A stretch of 64,000 nt of DNA, taken from the NCBI GenBank assembly GCA_023897205.1, contig JAHWDD010000001.1:1612001-1676000 (forward strand). Direction: 5' to 3'. The translations under genes and the position numbers were made by a program. The notes below the pieces were generated by a model, which saw nothing but the letters and a program-made list of their open reading frames with translations, ran no database searches and had not been told where the DNA came from. This DNA is from Exophiala sp. HKRS030. Its lineage: Eukaryota; Ascomycota; Eurotiomycetes; Chaetothyriales; Herpotrichiellaceae. Shown here piece by piece: positions 25,381-27,767 of this stretch. The stretch's first letter is position 1, and every line of letters starts with the position of its first letter.

Positions 25381-26094
25381 TCATCGTGCAACGGATATCT
25401 GTGGGTTGTAATAATCCGAAATCTCCTTCGTCAGCGCCTCCCTCACGATCGAACCGCATAGCTTCGCGTATGGGTTCGTCTTCACTGCGAGTTGTCGAGC
25501 AGTCTCATTCCCGTATCGCCCGCCGATACCTAGTTCCCGACTCGCTGCTTCCTCCAGAGAGTCCCTTGTCTCGTCTTTGAGACTGGGAACGGCGTCCAAC
25601 ATTCCACGGTTCCTCTCGGATTTACTGGCCATCAGGAGAAGGTAGCCCCTGTGTGTATGAGCTGATGCGAGCACTTTCGCATCCATCCGACTGACGGTAT
25701 CGCGTATTGTATTTGGTGTCGCCAGTGAGATGGCACGAGCAAGATCCTGGAATATCTCCGCCACAAGGCCTGGGCTGCCCGGCAAATCTGCATCCTTGAT
25801 CAACAGTCGTCGAACTTGAGCTCTGTTGTTGAAAGCCGAGGCATAGGATGGTTCATCTTCAATTATAGCCGTCAGTTCGGAAAGGGCATATTGAATGTTG
25901 GATATAGATGGCTTCTCCTGGTCGACCAGTCGTAGTACACGCCGTTCTCGTTCCTGGATTCTTCGTATCGACGAAGAGTTGGAGTCCCCAGGGAGACTCT
26001 TGTCGATCTGAATGGTACTTGACAAGGAGGATTCAGGGTCGAACAACGCTCCTAACACCGACGAATCATTCTTGGTCAGTTGAGGTGCAATCAT
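25381..26094 (-). CDS. TPR protein, TTC36 homologue
   Basis: A single exon of 237 residues; the start is the first ATG, at 26094. The N-terminus reads NDSSVLGALFDPES, like the TTC36 opening (nuclear or cytosolic protein with a VLxAIFNP-type start). A TPR region follows with ALSELTAIIEDEPSYASAFNNRAQVRRLL and then AHTHRGYLLLMASKS. The C-terminus, ARQLAVKTNPYAKLCGSIVREAL, matches the diagnostic TTC36 ending (NPYAxLCNxML). In mammals TTC36 is reported to bind HPPD and stop its ubiquitin-dependent loss. Here the gene is transcribed away from an HPPD gene 416 bp upstream, so a shared promoter and a shared function are likely. The family assignment is from memory of the vertebrate protein and should be checked with a profile search. 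Confidence 0.8.
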   Translation of the reverse strand: MIAPQLTKNDSSVLGALFDPESSLSSTIQIDKSLPGDSNSSSIRRIQERERRVLRLVDQEKPSISNIQYALSELTAIIEDEPSYASAFNNRAQVRRLLIKDADLPGSPGLVAEIFQDLARAISLATPNTIRDTVSRMDAKVLASAHTHRGYLLLMASKSERNRGMLDAVPSLKDETRDSLEEAASRELGIGGRYGNETARQLAVKTNPYAKLCGSIVREALTKEISDYYNPQISVAR

Positions 26095-26510
26095 TTTTGT
26101 CTGAGGATAGGACCGTCCGTAGTTGCAAGATTGCACAAGTTTAGGATATGTGATTGTTTAGTCAACTGGAGGAATATTGTTCTCCGTTGCCAATGCAGTG
26201 ATTTAAAGTAGGCAAAATAGCTAACTGGTGAATCGGCTCAGAGATAACGCGGTGGCACCACATCATGCTGGTCACAAGGACGGGCCGGGTCCACCCCAGT
26301 GTTGTAACAAGGAAAACCATTAGTATCCGTGCCCACCCACAACAGTAACAGATAAAGATACCTCACTCGCAGTGGCAGTGCCGTGCCTTTCCAGATTTTG
26401 TAGCATTGATAAGACGGAGGTTCATCTCGGACATTATCTGTGATTCTGCTGATATCACTGGACTTGACCTTTAACATCGTAACCCACATTTTGAAGTTGA
26501 TATTGCGACC
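26095..26510. promoter_or_regulatory. Bidirectional promoter, TTC36-like and HPPD genes
   Basis: This 416-bp non-coding interval separates the ATG codons of two divergent genes, so both promoters and 5' leaders must lie in it. I could not pick out a convincing palindromic binding site by eye. Confidence 0.6.
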
Positions 26511-27767
26511 ATGGCCCCAATCGCCCTAGCACCTACACCTGTACCAAGTCATGAACTTGCCAGCACGTTCCAAGACCAACATTCTCGCCAGACGCTTCCA
26601 CAAACATCGAAAAAGGTTGCCAGATACCAAGGCTATGATCACGTTCATTGGTGGGTTGGAAACGCGAAGCAGGCGGCTGCTTATTACATCTCCCAGATGG
26701 GGTTCGAAAAGATCGCCTACCGTGGACTCGAGACAGGTTCCAGAGTTGTTGCCTCACACGTGGTGCGCAATGGAGACGTAACCTTCGTTCTCACTTCGCC
26801 GTTACAAAGCTCAGATGCAACCAATGCCTCGCTGTCTGAAGAAGAACGACAAACGCTCAAGGAGATGCAGGACCATATGAGAGCACACGGTGACGCGGTA
26901 CGCGACGTAGCTTTCGAGGTCGACGATGTGGCCGCGGTGTATGATGCCGCCGTATCGAAGGGAGCACATTCGGTGCATCCACTGAAGACCATAGGTGACG
27001 AGAATGGTTCAGTGACCTATGCTCAAATCCGGACCTATGGAGACACCATTCACACCTTGGTCGAACGCCATCAGTATCAAGGCCCATTCCTTCCCGGCTA
27101 CCGAGCAGTCAGCGAGGTTTCTAGGGCATCCAAATACTTACCAGATGTCAATCTGATGCATGTGGATCATTGTGTAGGCAATCAAGATTGGGATGAAATG
27201 GAGGCTGCTTGTGAATATTATGAGAAAGCTCTTGGCTTCCATAGATTCTGGTCGGCCGACGACAAAGACATCTGTACCGATTATTCGGCTTTGAAATCGA
27301 TAGTCATGGCCAGCCCAGATGAAAGGATCAAGATGCCCATCAATGAACCAGCCAAGGGCAAAAAGAAGTCCCAAATTGAGGAATATGTCGACTTTTATAA
27401 CGGCGCTGGGGTGCAACATATCGCCTTGAGGACAGAAGACATCATCACCACGGTGACCAACATGAGAGAGCGAGGTATCGAGTTCATCAGCGTCCCAGAT
27501 ACCTACTATGAAGCAATGTCCAAAAGGCTGAGCTCTGCAGGAATGAAGTTGAACGAGGATTTTGCCAGGCTCAAAGAGCTGGGCATCCTGATTGATTTCG
27601 ATGAAGGTGGTTATCTCTTGCAGCTCTTCACGAAGCACTTGATGGATAGGCCAACCGTCTTTGTCGAGATCATTCAGCGAAATAACTTCTCTGGCTTCGG
27701 AGCAGGAAACTTCAAAGCTTTGTTCGAGGCGATTGAGAGAGAGCAGATGGCCAGGGGCAATCTCTAA
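26511..27767 (+). CDS. 4-hydroxyphenylpyruvate dioxygenase
   Basis: One intronless frame of 418 residues, close to the usual fungal length of about 400. HPPD converts 4-hydroxyphenylpyruvate to homogentisate in tyrosine breakdown, and homogentisate also feeds pyomelanin. The N-terminal domain shows [18 protein letters not shown]; the C-terminal vicinal-oxygen-chelate domain holds the Fe(II) ligands His220 (HVDHCVGN), His303 (VQHIALRT) and Glu386 (FVEIIQR). Their spacing of 83 and 83 residues is exactly that of known HPPDs. [15 protein letters not shown] is the usual C-terminal helix. [15 protein letters not shown] has Asn where most HPPDs have His (IQRHN), a small variation. Its neighbours are the divergent TTC36-like gene and, 0.5 kb downstream, a Zn2Cys6 regulator. 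Confidence 0.95.

Follow-up and report, generated by a model that had tools for sequence, protein, structure and literature searches.

Why does a fungal gene for HPPD share its upstream region with a gene for a small protein, and is that protein related to TTC36, which is reported to protect the same enzyme in mammals? The window, that is, the whole stretch of 64,000 nucleotides that was analysed, covers C1:1612001-1676000 of a 59.8-Mb assembly. An intronless ORF of 237 aa, here called HmgX/TTC36-like (25381..26094, minus strand), and a single-exon ORF for HPPD (26511..27767, plus strand; 418 aa, C-terminus ...RGNL) diverge from a presumed bidirectional promoter (26095..26510). The ORF coordinates bear out the original prediction of a head-to-head pair with 416 bp between its start codons. 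They are accompanied by a Zn2Cys6 / Fungal_trans transcription factor gene (28282..30894, plus strand; several exons with approximate borders), which occupies the place of hmgR and is its putative counterpart, and by an FMO-like flavin monooxygenase gene (22622..24344, minus strand; two ORFs).

The identity of the enzyme is straightforward. Pfam assigns the larger protein to glyoxalase/VOC families, and 34 of its 35 PDB matches at E<=1e-3 are named HPPD (the other is PCZA361.1), the top match being 8jbw_A at 582 bits. It had been predicted to be complete, with Fe ligands H220, H303 and E386, and these residues indeed read H, H and E. PDB matches, Pfam and the residue check thus agree on an HPPD, with VOC fold families and the 2-His-1-Glu iron site.

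Judged from its sequence, the 237-aa protein is HmgX. A protein search returned 614 matches at E<=0.01; among the best 120 of these, the 25 rows that name an organism are all fungal and nearly all 'hypothetical' or 'uncharacterized'. The exception that matters is P0115, which NCBI names 'L-tyrosine degradation gene cluster protein hmgX [Exophiala dermatitidis]' (47% identical across 95% of the query); the assignment rests on this E. dermatitidis hmgX. Nearest among the named relatives in the matches listed are Rhinocladiella similis (85%) and Exophiala spinifera (84%), which points to a black yeast of the Exophiala group as the probable source of the window. The gene structure fits as well: hppD is adjacent, the layout is bidirectional, there is no intron, and a second copy in the genome agrees. 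Generic searches are nearly silent; Pfam at E<=1 gives no TPR family, and a single-sequence search of the PDB yields just two chance-level matches. The sole Pfam match at E<=1, MLKL_N (E 0.13), falls under the family cut-off and was rejected.

Like HmgX of A. fumigatus (Afu2g04210) and Penicillium marneffei (PMAA_031980), the protein is of similar length and is encoded without an intron, beside and head to head with hppD, with a Zn2Cys6 regulator gene near. The A. fumigatus hmgX gene also has no intron, and in most ascomycetes sequenced by 2011 hppD adjoins hmgX, in many of them, as in A. fumigatus, with an apparent bidirectional promoter (Keller 2011, PMC3203155). In A. fumigatus, tyrosine induces both genes, HmgX-eGFP is cytoplasmic, and deletion of hmgX abolishes both tyrosine use and pyomelanin (PMC3203155). 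Deletion of hmgX does not alter hppD mRNA, and a crude extract of the hmgX/hmgA double mutant does not convert pHPP to homogentisate (PMC3203155). In P. marneffei, hmgX and hpdA deletions cause equal loss of growth on tyrosine and equal loss of pigment (PMC4374905). The control of tyrosine and pyomelanin flux that the original prediction had proposed was therefore already a genetic fact for hmgX in these two fungi (PMC3203155, PMC4374905). Inside macrophages, the P. marneffei hmgX mutant is reported to behave unlike the hpdA mutant (PMC4374905), so that HmgX may be only partly needed. In fungal genetics HmgX has so far figured as an accessory factor, said to act 'by a yet unidentified mechanism'.

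The same protein is, on sequence grounds, a fungal member of the TTC36 family. This departs from the published description of HmgX, which reports no conserved domain and no homologue in human, C. elegans or Dictyostelium (PMC3203155). In the literature searched, which leaves most subscription journals outside, no paper joins HmgX with TTC36 or tetratricopeptide; the locus and its genetics are already known, and what seems new, as far as that literature goes, is the equation of HmgX with TTC36. The comparison set was gathered with a human TTC36 sequence as query and comprises the best 120 of 538 matches, from mammals and birds. BLASTP aligns the 237-aa protein with Rhinopithecus TTC36 (P0122) at 26% across 220 columns (pairwise E 6e-14). 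Profiles were built from 112/120 HmgX and 115/120 TTC36 sequences, filtered by length, and hhalign joins them with 99.2% probability over 171 columns. Each profile finds the other family; in searches limited to these small sets, the best E values are 2e-20 and 8e-20. Counting the best stretch only, the HmgX profile scores 24.3-49.7 bits on all 120 TTC36 sequences (shuffle maximum 7.2; 12,000 shuffles made, 9,201 reported), and the TTC36 profile scores 14.7-42.9 bits on all 54 HmgX sequences (shuffle maximum 11.7; 10,800 made, 8,975 reported).

Because TPRs readily match one another, the profiles were also cut into segments. The original prediction had called a TTC36 homologue from three features, namely an N-terminal motif, a TPR region and an NPYAKLC ending. 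All three are present (ND..VL..F.P at residues 9-20, ASAFNNRAQVRRL at 85-97), but NPYAKLC occupies residues 207-213 of 237 and is not terminal. The C-terminal NPYAxLC segment is recognised in both directions, from HmgX to TTC36 at 10.5-20.5 bits (118/120 reported; shuffle maximum 7.3) and from TTC36 to HmgX at 8.5-15.4 bits in 54/54 (shuffle maximum 8.2). The TPR core with SAxNNRAQxRR gives 21.6-34.3 bits in 120/120 from HmgX to TTC36 (shuffle maximum 10.6) and, in reverse, 9.9-38.6 bits in 54/54 (shuffle maximum 13.0), a score that is non-specific alone. The N-terminal ND..VL..F.P motif is the weakest of the three shared segments: fair from HmgX to TTC36 (median 11.3 bits in 120/120, lowest 0.3, shuffle maximum 9.2) and weak in reverse (median 6.9 bits, range 1.1-14.6 in 54/54, shuffle maximum 9.3). 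Between the TPR core and the C-terminus, where HmgX has insertions, the cut profiles find no match between the families. A mixed alignment of six HmgX and five TTC36 sequences has 23 invariant columns; residues identical in 11/11 rows include N9, D10, V13, L14, N90, R91, A92, Q93, R96, N207, P208, Y209 and C213. HmgX thus shares with vertebrate TTC36 (HBP21), the partner of HPPD/HPD, a collinear order of N-terminal motif, TPR core and NPYAxLC motif. It differs in being about 50 residues longer, with insertions, and in having TPRs that escape Pfam. Two HmgX/TTC36 peptide patterns, run against a prokaryote collection described as holding 84,980 species, matched 12 stretches, of which none was confirmed; this result covers relatives that match those two patterns.

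A sceptical reading would place HmgX and TTC36 in separate families that resemble each other through TPRs only. Several controls lend it some weight. The TTC36 profile scores up to 101.7 bits, summed over repeats, on unrelated multi-TPR proteins in the PDB (63.7 bits on Hop), although the single stretches shown reach only about 11-13 bits; since such proteins score highly too, the total score of this profile on HmgX is non-specific alone. When a single TTC36 sequence is searched against the genome, a generic TPR ORF comes first at 24.1 bits and HmgX second at 22.1 (residues 3-97); the second HmgX appears as two collinear stretches of 19.0 and 18.2 bits. Rankings were made over 615 ORFs, consisting of the loci from that search and the ORFs of the window. 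With the TPR segment alone, generic rivals (33.6 and 32.8 bits) do as well as the HmgX copies or better (26.4 and 23.7), and with the N-terminal segment an unrelated ORF of the window (8.6 bits) narrowly exceeds HmgX (7.9). The full profiles rank differently: the two HmgX copies come out on top with both the first TTC36 profile (54.7 and 47.7 bits; best rival 31.7) and the second (54.1 and 45.8; best rival 36.8), as they do with the C-terminal segment (16.5 and 13.1; best rival 7.3). Moreover, the HmgX profile reaches up to 66 bits on TTC36 against just 21.7 on the best of 177,635 PDB sequences, a TPR protein (O-GlcNAc transferase). The lack of a Pfam TPR match for the 237-aa protein also speaks against mere repeat likeness, as do the C-terminal and, more weakly, the N-terminal motifs, which lie outside the TPRs and match in order. 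Separate families are therefore very improbable, and the profile comparison upholds the predicted homology whichever family supplies the profile, also beyond the generic TPR part.

The predicted structure is compatible with family membership. The HmgX model, computed from a 54-row alignment (mean pLDDT 85.4, pTM 0.78), consists of a helix at the N-terminus, a series of helix pairs and further helices at the C-terminus, and is predicted to be a helical-repeat, TPR-type fold. Foldseek finds nothing in the PDB at E<=0.001; the TPR domain of Hip fills the first four places (E 8.8e-3 to 3.3e-2; query TM 0.39-0.41; rmsd 10-11), and the 50 rows shown are mostly TPR domains and designed helical repeats. 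As far as the model goes, the best structural match is the middle TPR domain of Hip (Hsc70-interacting protein, PDB 4j8d), a weak one (E 8.8e-3, TM 0.41/0.57, rmsd 11). Hip is a general Hsc70 co-chaperone. For TTC36, a link to Hsp70 comes from co-chaperone remarks only. A TTC36 model has a similar order of helices; it was dropped as a fold comparison for its poor quality (pLDDT 64.9).

What the two families might share in function is constrained by the tail of the enzyme. In mouse and human cells, TTC36 is reported to bind HPD through its second VOC domain (loss of the QEYVD site has no effect) and to keep STK33 from phosphorylating T382, thereby preventing PELI1-driven degradation; Ttc36-/- mice have lower HPD protein and tyrosinaemia (PMC6753076). 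Human and rat HPPD are reported to have longer C-termini than the plant and microbial enzymes (PMC3739788). The last residue of the window HPPD aligns with human L381, just before T382, so the site of the mammalian client is absent. The tails of 120 HPPDs were surveyed (the window HPPD and 119 homologues, being the best 120 of 7999 matches): 39 end at GNL, 75 carry one more residue, and six lack GNL (four end GTL or GTLI, one RAV, and one odd gene model, P0256, is uninterpretable). Altogether, 118/120 of those listed extend at most one residue beyond the end of the window HPPD. The further residue is T in two listed HPPDs, P0310 and P0340, without the rest of the TxxE site. Because the window HPPD ends at the L381 equivalent, the T382 route (STK33/PELI1), judged by these sequences, cannot be the shared function. 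The original idea of a TTC36-HPPD partnership is supported by homology and linkage; the reported mammalian phosphodegron route does not carry over.

The explanation that best accommodates these observations, at a probability of roughly three in four, is that HmgX is a TPR-type, chaperone-like factor of the TTC36 family dedicated to HPPD, and that this role is ancestral. It draws on properties computed from the window and the genome (family membership by sequence, the TPR-type model fold, linkage, the second pair and the absent T382 site) and on two results of others, that HPPD activity needs HmgX in fungi (PMC3203155) and that TTC36 binds and stabilises HPD in mouse (PMC6753076). HmgX and HPPD are encoded on either side of one intergenic region. 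Judged from its published relatives, HmgX would act after transcription, with HPPD mRNA made but no HPPD activity without HmgX. It may bind nascent or mature HPPD directly, as TTC36 does via the second VOC domain in mammals, and, presumably as a holdase, would keep the enzyme folded, assembled or protected from turnover. The role would probably have existed already in the last ancestor shared by animals and fungi, and mammals would have added the STK33/PELI1 step to it later.

The main rival, ranked second, makes HmgX an activator that aids HPPD dimerisation, Fe(II) loading or active-site closure, so that without it HPPD would be present but inactive. In its favour, no homogentisate is formed by the extract of the hmgX/hmgA mutant, while loss of hmgX leaves hppD mRNA at a normal level; the authors propose an effect on 'specific activity', and the main text of Keller 2011 apparently gives no level of HppD protein (PMC3203155). 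Against this, human HPPD made in E. coli, presumably without TTC36, is active with a kcat of 2.2 per s (PMC3739788), and the relation to TTC36 points to stability, given the reduced HPD protein of Ttc36-/- mice (PMC6753076). Folding or stability is favoured over direct activation because an additional factor is seemingly not needed for catalysis by the bacterially made enzyme; activation is a possible but unlikely account, and HmgX is most likely a dedicated TPR holdase for HPPD folding or stability. That it works exactly as mammalian TTC36 does, keeping a kinase off HPPD so that a Pellino-type phosphodegron is not made, is barely credible: homology, the common client and the terminal T of P0310 and P0340 argue for it, but the window HPPD stops short of T382, and of the 120 HPPDs surveyed, itself included, 39 end at GNL and 75 reach a single residue further. 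A Pellino search of the genome gave no match, and its control was likewise silent.

The ancestry could also be illusory if TTC36 and HmgX, though of one family, had recruited HPPD independently, in which case the pair would be uninformative. Several unrelated partners of TTC36 are reported in mammals (IFT-A and c-Myc among them), and Keller 2011 found no counterpart of HmgX in C. elegans or Dictyostelium, two organisms with an HppD that the study aligned (PMC3203155). The same search likewise found no human homologue (PMC3203155), and it would be a coincidence for one small family to have taken up the same enzyme twice; independent recruitment is improbable, and the HPPD-TTC36 partnership is probably older than the animal-fungus split. 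The odds are about even for a further-reaching version, in which HPPD is the obligate client of a dedicated chaperone (TTC36 = HmgX) that dates back at least to the ancestor of animals and fungi and whose original job was folding or holding HPPD, the PELI1 degron being an addition on a tail that these fungal enzymes lack. On that version, human tyrosinaemia from loss of TTC36 (if as in mice) and the loss of pyomelanin on hmgX deletion would be the same defect. The dedicated-chaperone explanation joins two literatures, fungal HmgX genetics and mammalian TTC36/HPD work. If it is right, TTC36-linked tyrosinaemia can be modelled in a simple laboratory fungus. The reported mammalian mechanism would also need re-reading, because a shared function cannot rest on T382.

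Given a second copy in the genome, the head-to-head arrangement is more than chance. A diverged pair (locus L006) lies about 1.3 Mb from the first on the same contig, again head to head, with an HmgX 57% identical to the first (C1:2964524-2965210, plus strand) and an HPPD with an intron (C1:2962790-2964068, minus strand); the start codons are about 405 bp apart if the upstream ATG is the start. The flanking genes also correspond in type and in relative order: beside both pairs stand an FMO-like gene, with 50-52% identity between the copies, and a Zn2Cys6 factor, with 45-51% identity (85% in the zinc cluster). These shared neighbours set the locus apart from published HmgX loci, as does the lack of an HgmA or FAA-hydrolase match at the pair (the nearest FAA-hydrolase is about 50 kb off). 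Greene et al. 2014 describe cluster types that keep hmgX, hppD and hmgR together (PMC3914699). The FMO-like gene present at both pairs (22622-24344; L006 8696-9901) seems not to figure among the published cluster types. The two intergenic regions share the 12-mer GGTCACAAGGAC (26270..26281, or 26270-26281 of the window, and L006 6218-6229), a candidate regulatory element; a shared word of >=12 arose in 21/2000 dinucleotide shuffles, and a regulator site at this position is a weak lead.

Partners at each pair look as though they were inherited together, because matching sister groups recur in trees of HmgX (26 rows) and HPPD (21 rows), all hand-chosen. In both trees, Exophiala mesophila comes out as the sister of the second copies (support 99/95 and 100/100), whereas E. 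viscosa and E. elasticus share their clades with the first copies (84/82, 97/94). At deeper levels, the second-copy clade stands outside a C. epimyces-Fonsecaea-window group in the HmgX tree (98/94) and weakly with the Fonsecaea group in the HPPD tree (80/72); R. mackenziei joins the first-copy clade in the HmgX tree only. A linkage table was drawn up from all 25 organism-named HmgX rows of 120 and from 17/120 HPPD rows chosen for related species. For nine of the 25 HmgX rows the longest contig is identical in length to that of an HPPD row, in all nine cases from the same species. Five species have numbered locus tags on both sides: three are consecutive, one two apart and one far apart, the last being Cladophialophora chaetospira, whose listed HPPD sits in another tree clade. 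E. elasticus, with consecutive tags, has a second HPPD too, far from its listed HmgX. The listed HPPDs of E. viscosa, E. mesophila and E. dermatitidis are on contigs of differing length from those of HmgX, and the other HmgX rows have no HPPD row among the 17. The adjacency expected in related fungi is thus found in most ascomycetes sequenced by 2011 (PMC3203155), in the second genomic copy and, by table entries, in named relatives.

Some minor features of the genome and of the database deserve mention. HgmA_C (homogentisate-dioxygenase-like) has 17 matches on 11 contigs, not all of them separate genes; seven have an FAA-hydrolase match no more than about 8 kb away, and none is at either HPPD-HmgX pair. 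In the second HPPD (near C1:2964019-2964109; L006 about 6020-6110), the frame of the upstream ATG stops after 27 codons, and the conserved core is read in a different frame that has no early ATG; possible causes are damage to the 5' end, an intron that went unrecognised or an error of assembly. Finally, P0300, a fungal-type HPPD 66% identical to the window HPPD, is filed as Escherichia coli on a contig of 1,421 bases, which is most likely contamination.
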